DNA of 64,000 nucleotides from assembly GCF_026625125.1 (NCBI RefSeq), contig NZ_CP113097.1:1426001-1490000 (forward strand). The letters run 5' to 3'. Below the pieces are notes generated by a model. It saw only the letters and a list, made by a program, of their open reading frames with translations. It was not told where the DNA came from and did not search any database. Each line of letters opens with the position of its first letter. Positions within the stretch are counted from its first letter, which is position 1. The position numbers and the translations under genes are program-made. Shown in pieces: positions 11,821-52,481 of this stretch. This stretch comes from Pseudomonas putida. GTDB taxonomy: Bacteria; Pseudomonadota; Gammaproteobacteria; Pseudomonadales; Pseudomonadaceae.

Positions 11821-11849
11821 TTGACGCTCCCGGTGCAACACTCTAACCT
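11821..11849 (+). promoter_or_regulatory. Putative sigma70 promoter of the cobalamin operon
   Basis: TTGACG (11821-11826) and TAACCT (11844-11849) are separated by 17 bases and lie just before the first conserved base of the riboswitch, so transcription would begin at its 5' edge. Confidence 0.6.
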
Positions 11850-11854
11850 TCGCG

Positions 11855-12055
11855 CGTGTTTCAGGTGCCCTGCAAGCCCGTCTGGGCAGGGTGAAACTGG
11901 GAAGCCGGTGTGCGCCTATAAGGTGCGAGTCCGGCGCTGCCCCCGCAACGGTAGGTGAGTCAAAAACCGCGCACGGCCACTGGATGCCAGTATCCGGGAA
12001 GGCGCGCGGGCCCGGGCCAACGCCCGCTCACGAGCCCGGAGACCGGCCTGTCACT
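11855..12055 (+). ncRNA. Cobalamin riboswitch
   Basis: Conserved cobalamin aptamer blocks occur in order: GGTGCCC at 11864, GTGAAACTGGGAAGCCGGTG, AGTCCGGCGCTGCCCCCGCA, CACTGG, then GGGAAGG and AGCCCGGAGACCGGCC near 12035. The aptamer senses adenosylcobalamin and normally represses the genes behind it. It lies about 130 bases ahead of cobO, head of a ten-gene cobalamin cluster, so feedback control of the whole set is expected. Between the aptamer and cobO there is room for an expression platform; GC-rich pairings are possible but I cannot fix one structure by eye. Confidence 0.95.
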
Positions 12056-12183
12056 GCCAACGGCATCACGGAGGGTGATGCGCGGTGCACCGTGGCGTCT
12101 GGCCACGGCCCTGCGCGCTCTCCGTCTGCCCGCCTATCGACCTGTCGCCGTGTCTTACGCGGCGACAGCCTGCGGAGACCCCC

Positions 12184-41198: not shown

Positions 41199-41224
41199 GA
41201 GTAAGTCTCCATCGTTTGACTGAT

Positions 41225-41273
41225 GGGGCCGTCCCCGTAATGGTCACGCAGTGCGTCGTGAGGTCGTCCTCAC
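41225..41273 (-). ncRNA. Guanidine-II (mini-ykkC) riboswitch of sugE
   Basis: On the minus strand two small hairpins, each with an ACGR tetraloop: GTGAGG-ACGA-CCTCAC (41258-41273) and GGGG-ACGG-CCCC (41225-41236), 21 bases apart and just ahead of GATGGAGACTTACTC and the sugE ATG. This is the defining structure of the class, which binds two guanidinium ions and frees the ribosome-binding site. Confidence 0.92.
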
Positions 41274-41283
41274 AGAGGCCCTG

Positions 41284-42536: not shown

Positions 42537-42612
42537 GGGTGATTAGCTCAGCCGGGAGAGCATCTGCCTTACAAGCAGAGGGTCGGCGGTTCGATCCCGT
42601 CATCACCCACCA
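42537..42612 (+). tRNA. tRNA-Val (TAC), copy 1
   Basis: 76 bases. Acceptor GGGTGAT/ATCACCC with encoded ACCA, D arm TAGCTCAGCCGGGAGAGCA, anticodon TAC in CTTACAA, T arm GGCGGTTCGATCCCGTC. Confidence 0.97.
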
Positions 42613-42625
42613 CTCGATGTATAGC

Positions 42626-42702
42626 GCAGCGGTAGTTCAGTCGGTTAGAATACCGGCCTGTCACGCCGGGGGTCGCGGGTTCGAGTCCCGTCCGCTGCGC
42701 CA
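42626..42702 (+). tRNA. tRNA-Asp (GTC), copy 1
   Basis: 77 bases. Acceptor GCAGCGG/CCGCTGC with encoded GCCA, anticodon GTC in CTGTCAC, T arm GCGGGTTCGAGTCCCGT. Confidence 0.97.
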
Positions 42703-42871: not shown

Positions 42872-42947
42872 GGGTGATTAGCTCAGCCGGGAGAGCATCT
42901 GCCTTACAAGCAGAGGGTCGGCGGTTCGATCCCGTCATCACCCACCA
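42872..42947 (+). tRNA. tRNA-Val (TAC), copy 2
   Basis: Identical to copy 1 over all 76 bases, 335 bases downstream. Confidence 0.97.
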
Positions 42948-42960
42948 CTCGTTGAATAGC

Positions 42961-43037
42961 GCAGCGGTAGTTCAGTCGGTTAGAATACCGGCCTGTCACG
43001 CCGGGGGTCGCGGGTTCGAGTCCCGTCCGCTGCGCCA
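42961..43037 (+). tRNA. tRNA-Asp (GTC), copy 2
   Basis: Identical to copy 1 over all 77 bases; the short spacer between the two tRNAs differs slightly (CTCGATGTATAGC versus CTCGTTGAATAGC). Confidence 0.97.
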
Positions 43038-43902: not shown

Positions 43903-44097
43903 GTGGGGGGCGCAGTAACTCATGCTGGGATTTGCCCCAGCATAGCGCCATGGGGCGTTGGGGTGCCACCGCATGGTGCGTTGCCCTGCTGGCCTTGCCT
44001 GCTCCCCCCGCGTTGAAATACCGGTGATCCTGCAGCGGCCGGCTTGCCGGCGACGGCGCGGCAGGGCTGGCCCGACAATTGCTCAAAGACCCCCATC
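43903..44097. other. Divergent gap between map and nasA leader
   Basis: Contains the promoters of map and nasA and a degenerate REP-like palindrome (GGCCGGCTTGCCGGCGACGG, about 44038-44057). A sigma54-type site would be expected for nitrate control, but I see no convincing GG-N10-GC match. Confidence 0.45.
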
Positions 44098-44192
44098 AAG
44101 GCCGTCAACGTCGACTGCCTTCAACCCTTCACGACAAAGGCGCCGTGTTGCCCTCGCTTGCCAAGCAAGCCGGGGCAGCCGGCGCCTTTTGC
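44098..44192 (+). promoter_or_regulatory. Two-hairpin ANTAR-type antitermination leader of nasA
   Basis: Hairpin P1: AAGGC-C-GTC, loop AACGTC, GAC-T-GCCTT (44098-44121). Hairpin P2: CACGAC, loop AAAGGC, GCCGTG (44130-44147, one A-C mismatch). Both hexaloops have A first and G fourth, as known for RNA targets of ANTAR proteins such as NasR/NasT. P2 overlaps the left arm of a terminator-like stem AAAGGCGCCG/CGGCGCCTTT (44136-44145, 44180-44189), with further pairing inside, ending in TTTTGCG. P2 and the terminator cannot form together. The same design precedes nirB. Confidence 0.75.
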
Positions 44193-44215
44193 GTTTGCAC
44201 CAGGAGACCCGCCCC

Positions 44216-47200
44216 ATGGCCAGCACCGAAGTACGCAGCGTCTGCCCCTATTGCGGCGTAGGCTGCGGCATCGTCATGAGCGTGGCCGATGGCAAGGTCA
44301 GCAAGATCAGCGGTGACAAGCAGCACCCGAGCAACTTCGGCCGTCTGTGCACCAAAGGTCTTACCGCGCACCTGCCCCTGACCGCCGCCGGGCGCATGGA
44401 CAGTGCCTTTGTGCGCCAGCAACGCGACCATGAACCGGCGCGCAGCAGCATGGACCAGGCCATCGCCCAGGCTGCCGAGCGCCTGCGCGGCATCATCGAC
44501 CAGCACGGCCCGGACGCCGTAGCGCTTTACGTTTCCGGGCAGATGTCACTGGAAGCCCAGTACCTGGCCAACAAACTGGCCAAGGGCTTTATCCGCACCC
44601 GTCATATCGAGTCCAATTCACGCCTGTGCATGGCCAGCGCCGGCAGCGGCTACAAACTCTCGCTGGGAGCCGATGGCCCGCCCGGGAGCTACCAGGACTT
44701 CGAGCGTGCCGAGGTGTTCCTGGTGCTGGGTGCCAACATGGCCGACTGCCACCCGATCCTCTTCCTGCGCCTGCTCGACCGGATCAAGGCGGGGGCGAAG
44801 CTGATCGTGGTCGACCCACGCCGCACCGCCACCGCCGACAAGGCCGACCTGTTCCTGCAAGTGCGCCCCGGTAGCGACCTGGCACTGCTCAACGGCCTGT
44901 TGCATCTGCTGCACCGCAATGGCCAGACCAACCCCGACTTCATCGCTCGCCACACCGAGGGCTGGGAGGCGCTGCCGGCCTTCCTCGACGACTACACACC
45001 TGAGCGCGTCGCCGCCATCACCGGCCTTGCAGAAGATGATATCCGCCAGGCTGCCGCATGGATCGGCAGTGCAGGGGAGTGGATGAGCTGCTGGACCATG
45101 GGCCTGAACCAGAGCGTGCACGGCACCTGGCATACCAACGCAATCTGCAACCTGCACCTGGCCACCGGCGCCATCTGCCGCCCCGGCAGCGGGCCGTTCT
45201 CGCTGACCGGCCAGCCCAATGCCATGGGTGGCCGCGAGATGGGGTACATGGGGCCGGGGCTGCCGGGCCAACGCTCGGCGCTGGTCGACACCGACCGTAG
45301 TTTTGTCGAAGCGCAATGGGGCCTGGCACCCGGCAGCCTGCGGGCAGAAAGCGGCGAGGGCACGGTAGCCCTGTTCGAGCAGATGAAAACCGGCGAAGTG
45401 AAAGCCTGCTGGATCATCTGCAGCAACCCGGTGGCCAGCGTCGCCAACCGCCAGCAGGTGATCGATGGCCTGCGCCAGGCGCAGCTTGTGATCACCCAGG
45501 ATGCCTTTCTCGACACCGAAACCAACCCATACGCCGACATTCTTCTGCCCGCCGCACTCTGGGCTGAAGGCGAGGGTGTGATGATCAATAGCGAACGCAA
45601 CCTCACACTGATGCCTCGCGCCGTGCCGGCACCGGGCCAGAGCTTGCCGGACTGGCAGATCATCGCCCGGGTCGCCTGTGCCATGGGGTACGCCGAAGCC
45701 TTCGACTACGCCGACGCTGAAGCGGTGTACGACGAAATCCGTCGCTTCTACAACCCGCTCACCGGTTACGACCTGCGTGGGGTGGGCTACCCGCAACTGC
45801 GCGACAAGCCGCACCAGTGGCCTTGCCCGCCCGGCCGCGTGGACGACCGCAGCCCGGTGCGTTACATCGAGGACGGCGCATGCGCTGCCCCGGTGTTCCC
45901 CACCGCCAGTGGCAAGGCCCGCTTCTTCGCCCGGCCCTGGCTGCCCGCGCCGGAGCTGCCCGACGCCGACTACCCACTGGTGCTCAATACCGGGCGCGTG
46001 CAACACCAATGGCACACCCTGACCAAGACCGGCAAGGTGCCGGCCCTGAACAGGCTGGAGCCCGGCCCCTTCGTCGAGCTGCATCCCGAGGATGCCGCCC
46101 GGCTGGGCATCCAGGGTCGGGACCAGGTGGCGATCCGCTCGCGGCGGGGCCAGGCCGTGCTGCCGGCGCGTGTCAGCGACCGGGTCATGCCGGGCAATTG
46201 CTTCGCGCCGTTCCATTGGAACGATGTGATCGGCGAGCAACTGGCAATCAATGCCGTGACCTGCGATGCGGTCGATCCGCTGTCGCTGCAGCCTGCCCTC
46301 AAGCACTGCGCCGTGGCCCTCGAGCGGGTTGCTGGAGAACGCATCGATGCCCTGGACCTTGGCACCACCACCCATGCACCGGAGCCTGCCCGTATGCCGA
46401 CCGCGATCCTCTCTCGCCTGCTTGGTCTGGACACCCTCCCAGCCCCCGTACTGGCCGAAGACGAACGCCATTACCTGCAGGGCTTTCTGCTCGGCCTGGA
46501 CCAGGCGCGAGCCGAAGGGGTTCCCCGTTTGCCGGCCAGTGCGCCCTTGGCGGCCTCGCGCCGGTCGTTCGTGGATGGGCTGCTGGCCGGCCTGTACGCC
46601 CAGCAGCCGGCAGCAGCGGCGCTGCTCCCCGCCACGGCCCGGCATCAGGTGCTGTGGGCCTCGCAAACCGGCAACGGCGAGGCGCTGGCCGAGCGCTGCG
46701 CAGAGCGTTTGCGCGGCGCAGGGCTGCAGGTGCAGCTCAGTTGCATGGAGGCGATCAGCCCAAGCCAGTTGCAAGGCGCGGCGAGTGTGCTGCTGATTGC
46801 CAGCACCTTTGGCGATGGTGATGCGCCGGACAGCGCCACCGGGTTCTGGCGGGCGCTGCAAAGCGAGGAGGGCGCCCACTGCGCTGAGCTGCCTTATGCG
46901 GTGCTGGCCCTTGGCGACTCCAGTTACGCCCAGTTCTGCGGCTTTGGTCGCAAGCTCGATCAGCGCCTGGCCGAACTTGGGGGGCGCCGCCTGCTGCCGC
47001 GGGTCGACTGTGAACCGGATTTCGATGAGGCCTTTGCCACTTGGCTCGACGCGCTGTTGCCCCAGCTGGGCAGCGCTGCCGTGGCGCGCCCGGTCAACCA
47101 CGCCGCCGCCGCTGCGCCGTACAGCAAGCAACGGCCGTGGGCGGCGACGCTGCTGGAAAACACCCTGCTCAGTGGCCCCGGTTCAAGCAAGGAAACCCGC

Positions 47201-48205
47201 CAGCTGGTGTTCGAGCTTCCCGGCAGCGGCTTCACCTACGCGGTGGGCGATGCGCTGGGCGTGTGGCCCCGCAACTGCCCGGCGCTGGTGGAGGAGCTGC
47301 TGGCGCTCATGCAGCAGGACGGCCAGGCCCTGGTCGAACTCAAGGGCCAGCCGCCCATGCCGTTGGCCCAGGCCTTGGCGTCGCACCTGGAAATTGCCAG
47401 GGTCACCCCTCAGCAACTGCAGGTCTTCAGCCAGCAGGCTGAAGACCTCCGGCACCTGTTGCAGCCTGAGCGCACGGCAGCCCTGCAGGATTGGCTATGG
47501 GGCCGGCAGTTGGCCGACGTGCTGCGCGCGTTTCCACAAGACCTGCCGTTGGCAACCTGGCTCGAGTTGCTCAAACCCTTGCAACCGCGCCTGTACTCGA
47601 TCAGTTCCAGCCCATTGGCCCACCCCGGCCAGGTGCATCTGACCGTCTCTACCGTGCGTTATGGCCAGCGAAAAGGGGTGAGTTCGAGCTTCCTCGCTGA
47701 CCGGGGGCAGGCTGTGAAAGTGGCGATCTTTCCCCAGGCATCCCGGCATTTCCACCTGCCTGAAGACGATGACGTGCCGCTGATCATGGTTGGTCCCGGT
47801 ACAGGCATCGCGCCGTTTCGTGCGTTTCTCGAAGAGCGCGAGGCGCGGGGGGCAAAAGGGCATAACTGGCTGTTCTTCGGCGAGCAATGTGCAGCCACCG
47901 ATTTTTACTACCAGGCGCAGTTGCAGGCCTGGCAGGCCAGCGGCCACCTGCGCCTGGATACCGCGTTCTCCCGCGATCAGGCAGAAAAGATCTATGTGCA
48001 GCAGCGGATGCGTGAGCAGGGTGCGCAGGTGTGGCAGTGGCTGGAGGCGGGGGCCTACTTCTATGTGTGCGGTGATGCTCAGCGCATGGCCAAGGATGTG
48101 GATGCAGTGCTGCGCGAGATCATTGCCGAGCACGGTGGTGTGGATGCCGATGCCTACATGCAGGCCTTGAGCAAGGCCAGGCGTTATCGCCGGGATGTGT
48201 ATTGA
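44216..48205 (+). CDS. nasA: Assimilatory nitrate reductase fused to a CysJ-like flavoprotein reductase
   Basis: 1329 residues from the ATG at 44216 (RBS CAGGAGA). Residues about 1-700: molybdopterin oxidoreductase with a [4Fe-4S] site of Cys10, Cys13, Cys17 and Cys45 (CPYCGVGC...RLCTKG), bis-MGD binding, and the Mo-bis-MGD C-terminal dinucleotide domain ([20 protein letters not shown]). Residues from about 812: flavodoxin ([17 protein letters not shown]), FAD domain (RLYSISSS at about 1125) and NAD(P)-binding domain ([16 protein letters not shown] at about 1193), ending in Tyr as diflavin reductases do. One chain thus carries electrons from NAD(P)H to nitrate, replacing a separate electron-donor subunit. 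Confidence 0.95.
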
Positions 48206-48400
48206 AGTGCTCCAGGATGGGGAGCAGTGCACCTTGAGTGGGCGTGGTTCGGGTTGGCTCAAAGGTCGGTAAGCCGGCTTTCACGCCTGCAGCACAGGGC
48301 CAAATGACAGCAAAGCCCCTGTATGCGCCGGGTTGCCGGCGATAGAGCCGCGACAGGCGAGGTAACTGGCACATTCCCTGCTTTATCTCCAGCACAACAA
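48206..48400. other. Gap between nasA and the nirB leader
   Basis: No gene seen. It includes a degenerate REP-like stretch (GCGCCGGGTTGCCGGCGATA, about 48327-48346). It may hold a nirB promoter, but I found no clear one. Confidence 0.4.
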
Positions 48401-48491
48401 GCCCCACTGATCAACGGCGATCAACCGGGGGCACTCCGTGATGAATACAGGCAAAGGCGCCTGGAGCTTCGGCTCCAGGCGCTTTTTTTTT
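48401..48491 (+). promoter_or_regulatory. Two-hairpin ANTAR-type antitermination leader of nirB, with terminator
   Basis: P1: TGATC, loop AACGGC, GATCA (48408-48423), extended by outer GCCCC/GGGGC. P2: CAGGC, loop AAAGGC, GCCTG (48448-48463). A strong intrinsic terminator GCGCCTGGAGC-TTCG-GCTCCAGGCGC plus nine T (48457-48491) starts inside P2, so P2 and the terminator exclude each other. The P2 loop is identical to that in the nasA leader. nirB starts 17 bases after the T run. Confidence 0.8.
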
Positions 48492-48507
48492 GATCGAGGA
48501 TCGGCTT

Positions 48508-51060
48508 ATGAAGGCAACAGCGAGCAGCGGGCAACGAGAGCGACTGGTCATCGTCGGCAACGGCATGGTGGGCCACCATTGCGTCGAGCAACTGGTCGAA
48601 CGCGGCGCGCTGGCGCGCTTCGAGTTGCGCGTGTTCGGCGAGGAGCGCCAGCGCGCCTACGACCGCGTGCACCTGTCTGAATACTTCAGCGGCAGCTGTG
48701 CCGAAACCCTGGCCCTGTGCGAGCAGGGTTTCTATGGCGCCAACGGGGTGCACCTGCACCTGGGTGAAGCGGTGCTGCAGATCGACCGCGAGCGCTGTGA
48801 AGTGGTGACCGCCGAAGGCCGCTACGGGTACGACCATCTGGTCCTGGCCACCGGCTCTTACCCCTTCGTGCCCCCGATCGAGGGCTCCAGCGGCAACGCC
48901 CGCCTGGTCTATCGCACCCTCGACGATCTCGACGCGATACGCGCCGCAGCCGTCGATGCCACCCGTGGCGTGGTGGTGGGCGGCGGTCTGCTGGGCCTTG
49001 AGGCGGCCAATGCCCTCAAGTCCCTGGGCCTGGAAGCGCACGTGGTGGAGTTCGCGCCACGGCTGATGCCGGTGCAACTGGATGCTGAAGGCGGCGCCGC
49101 GCTCAAGGCGCAGATCCAAGCCCTGGGCGTAGGCGTGCACCTGTCGCGCGCCACCCAGTCGATCAGCGACGGCGAGGCCTACCGCTATCGGATGAATTTC
49201 GACGGTGGCGAACACCTGGAAACCGACCTGGTGGTGTTCTCTGCCGGCATTCGCCCGCAGGATGCCCTGGGCCGTGCCTGCGGCCTGGAGATCGCCGCGC
49301 GCGGCGGGGTGGTGGTCGACAACCACTGCCGCTCCAGCGACCCCCGGATCTTCGCCATCGGTGAATGCGCCTCGTGGAACGGCAGCGTGTTCGGCCTGGT
49401 TGCGCCGGGCTACAGCATGGCGCGCAACGTCGCGGCGCTGTTGTTGGGCGAGGCGGCTGGGGAATTCACCGGGGCCGACATGTCGACCAAGCTCAAGCTG
49501 CTGGGCGTCGATGTCGGCTCCATCGGCGATGCCCATGGCGCCACGCCGGGCTCGCGCAGCTACCGCTTCATCGACGAGGCCAATGCCGCCTATCGCCGGC
49601 TGGTGGTCGATGCCAGCGGCAAGCACGTACTCGGTGCCGTGCTGGTGGGCGACAACAGCTACTACGATACATTGCTGCAATACGCCCAGAACGGCATCGC
49701 CCTGCCTGCCGACCCGGCGGCCTTGATCCTGCCGCAAAGCGGCGGCGTACCAGCCCTGGGCGCCGATGCGCTGCCTGACAGCGCGACCCTCTGCTCGTGC
49801 CACAACGTCAGCAAGGGCGCAGTCTGCGCAGCGATTGACAGTGGTTGCGCCGACCTGGCTGCGGTCAAGGGCTGCACCAAGGCTGCCACCGGCTGTGGCG
49901 GCTGCGCGGCGCTGCTCAAGCAGGTGTTCGAGCATGAACTCACCGCCCGTGGCGTGGCCGTGGACAAGCGCCTGTGCGAACACTTCGCCTACACCCGGCA
50001 GGAGCTGTACGGGCTGGTGCGGGTGGGTGGCATACGCACCTTCAATGATTTGCTGGCGCGCCATGGCCAGGGCCATGTCGGCTGCGACATCTGCAAGCCG
50101 GCGGTGGGCAACATCCTCGCTTCGTGCTGGAACCAACCGATCATGGACCCTGCGCTGGTGCCGCTGCAGGACACCAACGACACCTTCATGGCCAACATGC
50201 AGAAAAACGGTACCTATTCGGTGGTGCCGCGCATTCCCGGCGGCGAAATCACCCCGGACAAACTGATCGTGATCGGTCAGGTGGCCAAGAAGTACGACCT
50301 TTACACCAAGATCACCGGCGGCCAACGCATCGACCTGTTCGGCGCCCAGTTGCACGAGCTGCCGCTGATCTGGGGCGAGCTGATCGAGGCCGGCTTCGAG
50401 ACTGGCCACGCCTACGGCAAATCGACCCGCACGGTGAAGTCCTGCGTAGGCAGCACCTGGTGCCGCTACGGTGTGCAGGACAGCGTCGCCATGGCGCTGC
50501 GCCTGGAGGACCGCTACAAGGGCCTGCGCAGCCCGCACAAGCTCAAGTTCGCGGTCTCTGGCTGCACCCGCGAATGCGCCGAGGCGCAAAGCAAGGACAT
50601 CGGCGTGATCGCCACCGACAAAGGCTGGAACCTCTACGTCTGCGGCAATGGCGGCATGCGCCCACGCCATGCCGAGCTGTTCGCTACCGACCTGGACGAC
50701 GAGACCCTGGTACGCCTGATCGACCGCGTGCTGATGTTCTACATCCGCACCGCCGACAAGCTGCAGCGCACGTCGGTGTGGCGTGAAAGCCTGGATGGCG
50801 GCCTGGACTACCTCAAGCAGGTGATCCTCGAAGACCGCCTGGGCCTGGCTGCCGAGCTGGAAGCGCAGATGCAGCATGTGGTCGAGCAGTACGAGTGCGA
50901 ATGGGCCAATGCCCTCAATGATCCGGAAAAGCTCAAGCGCTTCCGTACCTTCGTCAACGATCGACGCGCCGACCCGGACGTGCACTTCATCCGCGAGCGT
51001 GAACAACGTCGCCCCGCTGCACCCCTGCACCTGATCCCTACCGTCGAGGAGGCTGTCTGA
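48508..51060 (+). CDS. nirB: NADH-dependent assimilatory nitrite reductase, large subunit
   Basis: 850 residues from the ATG at 48508 (GAGGA eight bases ahead); an upstream TTG is inside the terminator T run and is rejected. N-terminal FAD/NADH reductase (LVIVGNGMVGHHCVEQL, GVVVGGGLLGLEAANALKSL), a BFD-like [2Fe-2S] segment (CSCHNVSKGAVCAAI and CTKAATGCGGC), then the sirohaem/[4Fe-4S] half with Cys ligands in KSCVGSTWCRYG and SGCTRECAEAQS. It reduces nitrite to ammonium. Its stop overlaps nirD. Confidence 0.97.
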   Translation: MKATASSGQRERLVIVGNGMVGHHCVEQLVERGALARFELRVFGEERQRAYDRVHLSEYFSGSCAETLALCEQGFYGANGVHLHLGEAVLQIDRERCEVVTAEGRYGYDHLVLATGSYPFVPPIEGSSGNARLVYRTLDDLDAIRAAAVDATRGVVVGGGLLGLEAANALKSLGLEAHVVEFAPRLMPVQLDAEGGAALKAQIQALGVGVHLSRATQSISDGEAYRYRMNFDGGEHLETDLVVFSAGIRPQDALGRACGLEIAARGGVVVDNHCRSSDPRIFAIGECASWNGSVFGLVAPGYSMARNVAALLLGEAAGEFTGADMSTKLKLLGVDVGSIGDAHGATPGSRSYRFIDEANAAYRRLVVDASGKHVLGAVLVGDNSYYDTLLQYAQNGIALPADPAALILPQSGGVPALGADALPDSATLCSCHNVSKGAVCAAIDSGCADLAAVKGCTKAATGCGGCAALLKQVFEHELTARGVAVDKRLCEHFAYTRQELYGLVRVGGIRTFNDLLARHGQGHVGCDICKPAVGNILASCWNQPIMDPALVPLQDTNDTFMANMQKNGTYSVVPRIPGGEITPDKLIVIGQVAKKYDLYTKITGGQRIDLFGAQLHELPLIWGELIEAGFETGHAYGKSTRTVKSCVGSTWCRYGVQDSVAMALRLEDRYKGLRSPHKLKFAVSGCTRECAEAQSKDIGVIATDKGWNLYVCGNGGMRPRHAELFATDLDDETLVRLIDRVLMFYIRTADKLQRTSVWRESLDGGLDYLKQVILEDRLGLAAELEAQMQHVVEQYECEWANALNDPEKLKRFRTFVNDRRADPDVHFIREREQRRPAAPLHLIPTVEEAV

Positions 51061-51422
51061 TGACCCTGTCCAATGCTGCTGTGGCAAAGCAACCCAACTG
51101 GCAAGCGGTGTGCCACACCGCTGACCTGGTCGCCGACTCCGGTGTGGTGGTCTGGCTCGATGGTATCCAGGTCGCCCTGTTCTACCTGCCGGGGCAGGCG
51201 CAGAGCCTGTACGCGGTGGACAACCGCGACCCACGCTCGGGGGCCAACATCATTGGCCGCGGGCTGGTGGGCAGCCTGCAGGGTGAGCTGGTGGTGGCAG
51301 CCCCGCTGTACAAGCAGCACTTCAGCCTGCACAGCGGGGCCTGTCTGGAAGATGCCAGCCAGCACTTACGTGTTTGGCCGGTACGGCTGAACGGGGAGGC
51401 AGTGGAAGTGGCGCTGGCCTGA
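51060..51422 (+). CDS. nirD: Nitrite reductase small subunit
   Basis: 120 residues, TGATG overlap with nirB. Rieske-like fold (LYAVDNRDPRSGANIIGRGL, VAAPLYKQHFSLHSGACLED) in which the Cys/His cluster ligands of true Rieske proteins are missing, as is normal for NirD. It is the companion of NirB. Confidence 0.95.
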   Translation: MTLSNAAVAKQPNWQAVCHTADLVADSGVVVWLDGIQVALFYLPGQAQSLYAVDNRDPRSGANIIGRGLVGSLQGELVVAAPLYKQHFSLHSGACLEDASQHLRVWPVRLNGEAVEVALA

Positions 51423-51548: not shown

Positions 51549-52481
51549 ATGAACCTCGACACCCGCATCAAGTACCGCCACCTGCTGTGCTTTCTGGAGA
51601 TTGCCCGGCAGGGCAGCCTGGCCAGGGCCGCTGACATTCTGGCGATCAGCCAGCCTGCGATTTCCAAGACCCTCAAGGAGCTTGAGGACCTGCTCGAAAC
51701 GCGTCTGTTCGAGCGCAGCCGCCAAGGGGTCGAGCTGACCCCGGCCGGCACCCGTTTCATGCATTACGCCGGGCCCAGCGTGCAGGCCCTGCGCGACGGC
51801 GTGAGCAGCTTGCGCGGTGAAGCGCGGGCACCGTCGCAGGTGCGCATCGGCGTGCTGTCCACGGTCGAAGGCCTGCTGATGCCCGAAGTGCTGTGCCGGT
51901 TGCACCAACGCCACGAGGCATTGCTGATCAGCGTGGTGACCGGGGCCAGTGCACAGTTGCTCGGGCAGTTGCGCCTGGGGGAACTGGAATTGGTGGTGGG
52001 GCGCATGACCGACAGCCCGCAGATCCAGGGTTTGTCGTTCGAACACCTGTACAGCGAGTCGATGGCTTTGGTCGTGCGCCCCGGCCACCCATTGCTGGCC
52101 AGCACGCAAGTAGACCGAGCCCGCGTCAGCCGATACCCGCTGGTGCTCCCGCCACCGGGCACGACCATTCGCCAGCACGCCGACAGCCTGTTCGTGCAAT
52201 GCGGCATTCAACTGCCGGCCCAGCGCCTGGAGACCCTCTCACTGGCCTTGAGCCGCCGCTACCTGCTAGGCAGTGACGCCGTGTGGGTGGCGCCGCGTGA
52301 TGCGGTGCTGCTCGACCTGCGCCGCGGCGAACTGGCCGAGCTCGACCTAGGGGTGCGGGAACCGGGTGGGTCGGTGGGTATCTGCCGCAATGCCGCCTTG
52401 GCGCTGAGCCTGCCCGGGCAGTGGGTGTGCGATGTATTGCGGGAAGTGGCGGGGCAATATCGCGAGCGGTCGTACCCGTAA
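51549..52481 (+). CDS. pcaQ: LysR-type regulator, PcaQ-like
   Basis: 310 residues. N-terminal HTH: RIKYRHLLCFLEIARQGSLA, RAADILAISQPAISKTLKEL, the pattern of the PcaQ branch that controls protocatechuate genes. A periplasmic-binding-protein-like effector domain follows (VRIGVLSTVEGLLMPEVLCR onward). No pca genes lie in the window, so the target is elsewhere or the assignment is to a PcaQ-like homologue. Only 126 bases separate it from nirD; I see nothing coding there. Confidence 0.75.
   Translation: MNLDTRIKYRHLLCFLEIARQGSLARAADILAISQPAISKTLKELEDLLETRLFERSRQGVELTPAGTRFMHYAGPSVQALRDGVSSLRGEARAPSQVRIGVLSTVEGLLMPEVLCRLHQRHEALLISVVTGASAQLLGQLRLGELELVVGRMTDSPQIQGLSFEHLYSESMALVVRPGHPLLASTQVDRARVSRYPLVLPPPGTTIRQHADSLFVQCGIQLPAQRLETLSLALSRRYLLGSDAVWVAPRDAVLLDLRRGELAELDLGVREPGGSVGICRNAALALSLPGQWVCDVLREVAGQYRERSYP

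Follow-up and report, generated by a model that had tools for sequence, protein, structure and literature searches.

Do nasA and nirB, which lie in line in Pseudomonas putida, form one operon or separately gated steps, and what reads the RNA leaders in front of them? The question is raised by a stretch of 64,000 nucleotides (nt), called the window below (contig NZ_CP113097.1, positions 1,426,001 to 1,490,000 of the forward strand). A first-pass annotation of the window had described matched leaders in front of the two genes, each made of two hairpins (P1 and P2) and a terminator sharing the right arm and loop of P2. It had taken them for targets of an ANTAR protein such as NasT and had proposed that nirBD is gated separately from nasA. 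Our computational analysis argues with high confidence that every one of these leaders works as a transcription attenuator of the ANTAR type, is read by NasT and has its own sigma54 start, and that there are three such separate units. The sigma54 promoters and the third copy of the leader had been missed in the first-pass annotation.

Leaders and promoters in front of nasA and nirB

The features of the two units in the window are as follows.

44068-44083, forward strand: sigma54 -24/-12 promoter of nasA, TGGCCCGACAATTGCT, consensus match 10/11
44098-44121, forward strand: P1 hairpin of the nasA leader, AAGGCcGUC[AACGUC]GACuGCCUU, loop AACGTC in DNA
44130-44147, forward strand: P2 hairpin of the nasA leader (putative antiterminator), CACGaC[AAAGGC]GcCGUG, one A.C mismatch
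44136-44190, forward strand: terminator-like hairpin of nasA, its left arm opening with the loop and right arm of P2; bulged stem, run of four Ts
44216-48205, forward strand: nasA, 1329 amino acids (aa), molybdopterin assimilatory nitrate reductase fused to a CysJ-like flavodoxin/FAD/NAD reductase
48367-48382, forward strand: sigma54 -24/-12 promoter of nirB, TGGCACATTCCCTGCT, consensus match 10/11
48401-48432, forward strand: P1 of the nirB leader, GCCCC-ac-UGAUC[AACGGC]GAUCA-accg-GGGGC, outer stem GCCCC/GGGGC, inner stem TGATC/GATCA
48448-48463, forward strand: P2 hairpin of the nirB leader (putative antiterminator), CAGGC[AAAGGC]GCCUG
48453-48486, forward strand: intrinsic terminator of nirB, AAAGGCGCCUGGAGC-UUCG-GCUCCAGGCGCUUUU, its T run reaching 48491
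48508-51060, forward strand: nirB, nitrite reductase large subunit
51060-51422, forward strand: nirD, nitrite reductase small subunit

The two-hairpin leaders were found as described: the P1 loop is AACGTC in nasA and AACGGC in nirB, and P2 has the loop AAAGGC in each. In all four hexaloops A is first and G fourth (A1/G4), with a C-G closing pair, and the stems of both leaders agree with the dual-hexaloop criterion of two hairpins of at least 3 base pairs (bp) with A1/G4 hexaloops. The fold energies of regions 44060-44206 (z -3.3) and 48380-48500 (z -5.0) each beat 200/200 shuffles. The description of the leaders as matched was correct for the hexaloop classes, but not for spacing and terminator quality. 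The P1-P2 gap was 8 nt in the nasA leader and 15 nt in the nirB leader (24 nt counted from the inner P1 stem), and the loop-to-loop distances were 29 and 40 nt, respectively. The hairpin of nirB is a textbook terminator, overlapped by P2 and mutually exclusive with it according to both fold and scan. In the nasA leader, P2 overlaps a mutually exclusive hairpin (44136-44190), which is long, stable and the dominant fold of the full leader, but its stem is bulged and its T run has only four Ts. The shared arm held for both leaders, and a clear terminator for nirB.

Folding with P2 forced and unforced, proposed with the first-pass annotation, was in agreement with this arrangement. Forcing P2 in the full leader cost 17.0 kcal/mol for nasA, 15.1 for nirB and 15.2 for the third leader, which precedes a transporter gene. 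When the transcript ended at P2, P2 formed, with mean pair probabilities of 0.71, 0.99 and 0.96, respectively. The probability was 0.03 or lower by 16 nt past P2 in nasA and nirB, came back to about 0.25 at 24-32 nt in nasA, and was 0.00 by 40 nt past P2 in all three leaders. Since the probability was high at first and then lost, P2 appears to be an early and short-lived structure that needs capture, as it does in the published ANTAR model (PMC8934654).

Each leader is preceded by a sigma54 promoter element. A score of at least 9/11 was obtained in 39/39 nasA upstream regions, compared with 87/780 shuffles, and in 78/79 nirB upstream regions, compared with 132/1580 shuffles. The nirB promoter of the window lies about 160 nt past the nasA stop. 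Where nasA is divergent from nirB (L095, L096), a separate sigma54 element and P2 stand before each of the two genes. The nasA leader region 44069-44146 matched the Rfam family RF03032 (narK RNA) with 48.5 bits (gathering score 43.2). The alignments of RF03032 and RF00625 start with apparent sigma54 -24/-12 DNA, and RF00625 even draws base pairs there; because this 5' stretch resembles promoter DNA, part of their score is probably not due to RNA.

The best reading is that each of the three units is an AND gate, requiring both nitrogen limitation and nitrate. When nitrogen is limiting, NtrC and sigma54 would start transcription at 44068-44083 for nasA and independently at 48367-48382 for nirB. 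P1 would fold first and P2 next, and the loop and right arm of P2 would also build the left arm of the longer terminating hairpin. Without nitrate, NasS would hold NasT; P2 would give way to the longer hairpin within a few tens of nucleotides, so that RNA polymerase would stop. With nitrate or nitrite, free NasT would capture the A1/G4 hexaloops, P2 would be kept, the terminator would be blocked, and nasA or nirBD would be transcribed. The third unit, of the same design, would drive a nitrate transporter downstream of nasT. The terminator just ahead of nirB would also cut read-through coming from nasA. NasT very probably opens the RNA switches of nasA and nirB in this soil Pseudomonas, presumably by binding these RNAs, and the promoters are likely to depend on NtrC. 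The nirBD transcripts would come from their own promoter rather than from nasA read-through. Termination in vivo is also likely, though least so for nasA, whose T run is short.

The third leader and the only ANTAR protein of the genome

The third unit lies elsewhere in the same genome.

L016:5327-5457 (G000:C1 about 1827326-1827456), minus strand: sigma54 element and leader, lying between nasT and the gene for a NarK-family transporter

Its sigma54 element is TGGCCCAGCTCTTGCT. The loops read AACGGC in P1 and AAAGAC in P2, and after a long hairpin comes the NarK-family transporter gene, which is followed by a kinase-phosphatase gene and then cobA. Its leader scored 74.5 bits against RF03032 and was the best match to this family in the genome. 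The sole ANTAR protein of the 5.86 Mb genome is NasT, with receiver-like (REC) and ANTAR domains. The first-pass annotation had suggested that nasS-nasT be looked for elsewhere in the genome; nasS, whose product is NMT1-like, was found adjoining nasT.

Two covariance models were built, R1 from compact leaders (nasA and transporter type) and R2 from nirB leaders, and the leaders of the window genome were included in building both. In the genome search with R1, the best match was the transporter leader (58.4 bits), followed by the nasA leader (56.7 bits), and the next one reached 17 bits (E 0.56). R2 found the nirB leader (118 bits) and one overlapping match on the opposite strand (E 1.5). The three leaders were the only strong matches found in the genome among the 150 of 4880 first-look candidates scored for R1 and the 150 of 5100 for R2. 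Further NasT targets among weaker R1 matches were considered and rejected, as nothing lay between 56.7 and 17 bits among the 150 of 4880 candidates scored. A P11 match at G000:C1:2289732 (30 bits) was also rejected, because it lies antisense within a reading frame of 360 aa.

Some other features of the window were noted. A LysR gene (51549-52481) after nirD scored above the cut-off for the PcaQ model, and such a gene stands close behind nirD in many relatives. The same tRNA gene pair occurs twice in tandem (42537-42699 and 42872-43034) with its flanks repeated. A Guanidine-II riboswitch (41224-41275, minus strand) lies ahead of a gene for a 105 aa membrane protein, judged by eye to be of the SMR type, and a cobalamin riboswitch (98.9 bits) occupies 11846-12065. 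A CRISPR-DR36 match at 47549-47585 (19 bits, E 0.93) was rejected as chance.

Conservation and variation in relatives

The presence of the leader was associated with that of an ANTAR gene. Among 149 genomes of the genus, the own one included, 134 had a compact leader (R1, E 0.01 or better) and 133 had an ANTAR protein; the two occurred together in 131 and were both missing in 13, with only the ANTAR protein in 2 and only the leader in 3 (Fisher test, 3.4e-14, uncorrected for kinship), a table that speaks for compact leaders alone and in which PF03861 does not split NasT from other ANTAR proteins. For nirB, 50 genomes were picked by hand (50 of 80 loci, chosen to take in odd leaders and not a random sample), of which 47 had an ANTAR protein and 48 had a long enough nirB upstream region. 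Among these 48, the three genomes lacking an ANTAR protein (L086, L088, L090) were exactly the three without a nirB leader, also under a broader pattern. In L088 and L090, which have no leader and no ANTAR protein in the genome, a sigma54 element lies 58 nt upstream of nirB.

The hexaloop class was retained in relatives. Between promoter and P2, 13/14 hexaloop stems of at least 5 bp were A1/G4 for nasA (expected 0.7; 19 non-redundant regions), and 36/52 were so for nirB (expected 3.3; 47 regions). This count left out five nasA and three nirB regions without the P2 pattern; the five nasA regions still have P2, with loop GAAGGC or GACGGC, and the nirB regions L086, L088 and L090 had no P2 even under the broader pattern. 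Rows with P2 were found by patterns that prescribe the class of the loop and some of the right arm, and counts of P2 loops are conditional on these patterns; L046 and L054 were left out for too short an upstream sequence. Where nasA lies directly upstream of nirB, the P2 motif stood ahead of both genes in 38/38 loci, the window included. Together with the sigma54 promoter before each leader, this strengthened the proposal that nirBD is separately gated. The first hexaloop was called in 38/38 nirB and 35/38 nasA leaders of these loci; the remaining three were L018 and L024, where the loop sits in a stem too mismatched for the filter, and L048, which has none.

Covariation of the hexaloop stems had been proposed as a check, and P1 covaried. 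The nirB set had 32 cells changed on both sides, compared with 10.0 in shuffles, and the nasA plus transporter set had 25, compared with 7.9 (0/500 shuffles as high in each). For nasA alone the covariation of P1 was weaker, with 8 cells compared with 4.0 and 1/500 shuffles as high. P2 was invariant and hence uninformative. Its five paired positions in nasA were identical in 28/28 aligned rows, the window included, all preselected by a pattern fixing the loop class and three right-arm letters, and nirB P2 was the same in 32/32 aligned rows preselected by the P2 pattern. The P2 stems differ between leaders yet stay paired: CACGaC/GcCGTG in nasA, CAGGC/GCCTG in nirB and CGAC/GTCG in the transporter leader. 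Alignment A1 held 28 of 29 non-redundant nasA rows (L042 out), A2 held 32 of 65 nirB rows, of the two-hexaloop type, A3 held 33 of 42 cores (41 plus the window), and A4 held 16 of 23 rows, seven more divergent ones being dropped as unalignable in our judgement.

The leaders differed in spacing throughout the relatives. The nearest upstream hexaloop lay 17-30 nt before the P2 loop in nasA leaders, with a mode of 24 (called in 28/34), and 38-47 nt before it in 60/71 nirB leaders (called in 71/76). Furthermore, three A1/G4 hexaloops occur in many nirB leaders from beyond the putida group, namely from Stutzerimonas and from other Pseudomonas (several of L055-L085). Among 26 non-redundant nirB leaders in which promoter and P2 are more than 100 nt apart, a strict rule found the outer hexaloop in 17, the middle one in 10 and both in 7, compared with rates of 1.7%, 0.9% and 0.2% in 1040 shuffles; stems with other loops stood at the outer place in 4 leaders and at the middle place in 1. 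In the three-hexaloop alignment, both extra hairpins and their outer stems covaried (23 cells compared with 6.0, 0/500 shuffles). The P1 stem of the putida type resembles the outermost of the three, and this likeness of stems suggests that the putida-type nirB leader has lost the middle hexaloop.

The type of ANTAR protein may also matter. Genomes were labelled by hand as having NasT, only a NIT-ANTAR protein (NasR-like) or none. Eight of the 50 genomes have NIT-ANTAR without NasT (L047, L048, L050, L053, L065, L066, L068, L072); NIT and ANTAR in one protein were checked with Pfam in 5/8, and the other 3 were taken from neighbouring matches in one open frame. In 5/8 of these genomes, a P2 motif stood before nirB with no recognised A1/G4 first hexaloop, whereas 37/37 testable genomes with NasT in this set had the first hexaloop before nirB. 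A NIT-ANTAR frame was also present in six NasT genomes of the set. It is a lead, drawn from selected genomes of which several are close kin, that NIT-ANTAR in place of NasT goes with a missing first hexaloop.

A tentative and rather doubtful extension is that the gates are tuned by their architecture. The compact nasA and transporter leaders, whose T run is short, might leak and open at low free NasT, and the wide-spaced nirB leader, whose T run is long, might stay shut until NasT is plentiful. If so, weaker binding of NasT, for example through cyclic di-GMP (c-di-GMP), would close nirBD before nasA and lead to nitrite release, which offers a possible reason for transient release of nitrite. 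In the 2024 work of Nie, high c-di-GMP reportedly raised nitrite export. The three-hexaloop nirB leaders would then be an enlarged form of the nirB gate, in which the additional hexaloop assists in recruiting NasT or passing it on, and the first hexaloop would often be dispensable where a NIT-ANTAR protein replaces NasT. It is worth following how leaders are paired over consecutive steps and how they differ in spacing and terminator strength. The compact, wide, three-hexaloop and NIT-ANTAR-associated leaders make a natural series for testing hexaloop number, spacing and terminator strength against the ANTAR response.

Alternative explanations and comparison with known systems

Several observations weigh against attenuation by NasT at all three leaders. 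The consensus terminator scan did not call the nasA hairpin 44136-44190, and found in the nasA leader just a 5 bp stem at 44172-44188 (shuffle mean 0.5); in the transporter leader it called nothing (0 found). Both hairpins escaped the scan because their stems are bulged and their T runs short. A gapless terminator scan called 33/38 nirB but only 3/38 nasA leaders. The linker of the nirB leader, at least 15 nt, exceeds the 5-12 nt reported for the Enterococcus faecalis eut leaders (PMC3369931). Pairing of P2, which is constant within each set, has no support from covariation, and related rows can beat shuffles in covariation even without structure. Moreover, other covariation measures were weaker than the cell counts. 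The number of pairs with changes on both sides was reached by 12/500 shuffles for nasA, 35/500 for nirB and 54/500 for nasA plus transporter, and the number of further pair types by 126/500, 1/500 and 368/500, respectively. NtrC-like sites at 43965 and 48229 (8/10) were rejected as evidence, as 447 and 249 of 2000 shuffles equalled them. An ANTAR protein without an R1 match was found in two genomes (G104, G117), and an R1 match without an ANTAR protein in three (G128, G186, G139). The leader matches of G128 and G186 are weak and these genomes are 87-88% complete. In G139 (L196/L197, G139:C3), a strong leader match stands before an internally deleted nasA with a LysR gene next to it, no ANTAR protein was matched in the genome, and nirB and nirD were unmatched in the 7.5 kb fetched; this leader looks like a relic.

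It is unlikely that the nirB leader mainly attenuates read-through from nasA, with nasA-nirBD as one operon with an internal gate. The two genes point the same way and are about 300 nt apart, and the consensus scan of 48000-48600 found no terminator-like site besides that of the nirB leader. Nevertheless, the sigma54-type element before nirB also occurs at loci without a nasA match and at the two with divergent nasA, and the nirBD leader RNA is described as started from a sigma54 promoter (PMC12830290). It is also improbable that attenuation is genuine for nirB alone and that the hairpins of nasA and the transporter are weak or non-terminating, with NasT acting there little or otherwise. The bulged stems, the run of four Ts and the scan results given above speak for such a view, but the nasA and transporter leaders of relatives retain the two hexaloops as well as their overlap with the long hairpin, and R1 matches track ANTAR genes. 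In addition, NasT is stated to activate PP_1703, a statement given without leader data (PMC7261876).

Ordinary terminators with chance hexaloops, and regulation at the promoters only, make a very improbable account. The invariant P2 overlaps the terminator, and terminator constraint could explain part of its conservation; P1, however, is not part of the terminator, and it covaries and retains A1/G4; the leader also co-occurs with the ANTAR gene, and the first hexaloop is kept before nirB in every testable NasT genome of the hand-picked 50. Direct reading of the leaders by a small molecule is scarcely credible. RF03032 is listed merely as a cis-regulatory RNA, which would leave room for it, but the leaders are two simple hairpins bearing the published ANTAR target signature, and leader and ANTAR gene are jointly absent in 13 genomes of the genus. 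The reading of the leaders as NasT targets is supported by the single ANTAR protein of the genome, its co-occurrence with the leader and the covariation of P1. Nitrate assimilation in this group would comprise three units, each with a start and a gate of its own, that answer to a single antiterminator; the architectures of the gates differ, and these differences are conserved.

Compared with the Rfam families, the nasA and transporter leaders are members of RF03032, but the nirB leader is not (15.9 bits). The nirB leader was closer to P11 (RF00625), which we take to be the same RNA as NalA, the nirBD leader RNA. RF00625 aligns over 48355-48483, and both RNAs stand before nirB with a sigma54 promoter, a blocking hairpin and NasT. 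The score of 36.3 bits was below the gathering score of 70, and the nirB leader is likened to P11 by position and parts rather than counted as a member. It also differs in that the P11 consensus draws an extra middle hairpin with a G-C closed A1/G4 loop, AuaGAA, whereas the nirB leader of the window has two hexaloops.

The mechanism and the reading of a nirB leader by NasT have already been published; the paired layout, the third copy and the three-hairpin variant in relatives are useful additions. A 2026 review, citing work on P. aeruginosa (Romeo 2012) and P. putida (Nie 2024), describes NalA as started from a sigma54 promoter with NtrC; in the absence of NasT a hairpin in it acts as a block, NasT opens it and is required for nirBD expression, and c-di-GMP weakens NasT binding (PMC12830290). 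This requirement is in agreement with the effect of NasT loss on nirB expected by the first-pass annotation. In P. putida, deletion of nasT abolished growth on nitrate, and NasT is stated to activate nirBD as well as PP_1703 (PMC7261876). The wild type under nitrogen limitation raised nirB 13-fold and nirD 17-fold, and the regulation was called not clear (PMC7801951). Within a partial literature search, the P. putida nasA leader was not found described as a dual-hexaloop target, and protein binding with nitrate-dependent read-through was found described for the nirBD leader but neither for this strain nor for the nasA leader.

The nasA leader of Paracoccus denitrificans is similar in having two hairpins upstream, control by NasS-NasT and reporter mutants for each hairpin. 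It differs in that one leader heads one nasABGHC operon. Its hairpins lie 137 and 91 bp upstream of nasA, about 46 nt apart, which is near the nirB spacing here (PMC5424462). For the E. faecalis eut leaders, lengthening the linker to 14 nt hurt induction, and the ANTAR search model permits a variable linker (PMC3369931). The nasA linker of 8 nt falls within the eut range and the nirB linker of 15 or 24 nt outside it, a range that is specific to EutV and not defining. The leaders read by EutV and NasR share with ours the A1/G4 hexaloops, the C-G closing pair and a P2 overlapping the terminator, and the eut system of E. faecalis likewise has several gates under one regulator. The regulator itself is different: a phospho-regulated EutV or a one-component NasR there, and NasS-NasT here (PMC3369931, PMC7496416, PMC8934654).

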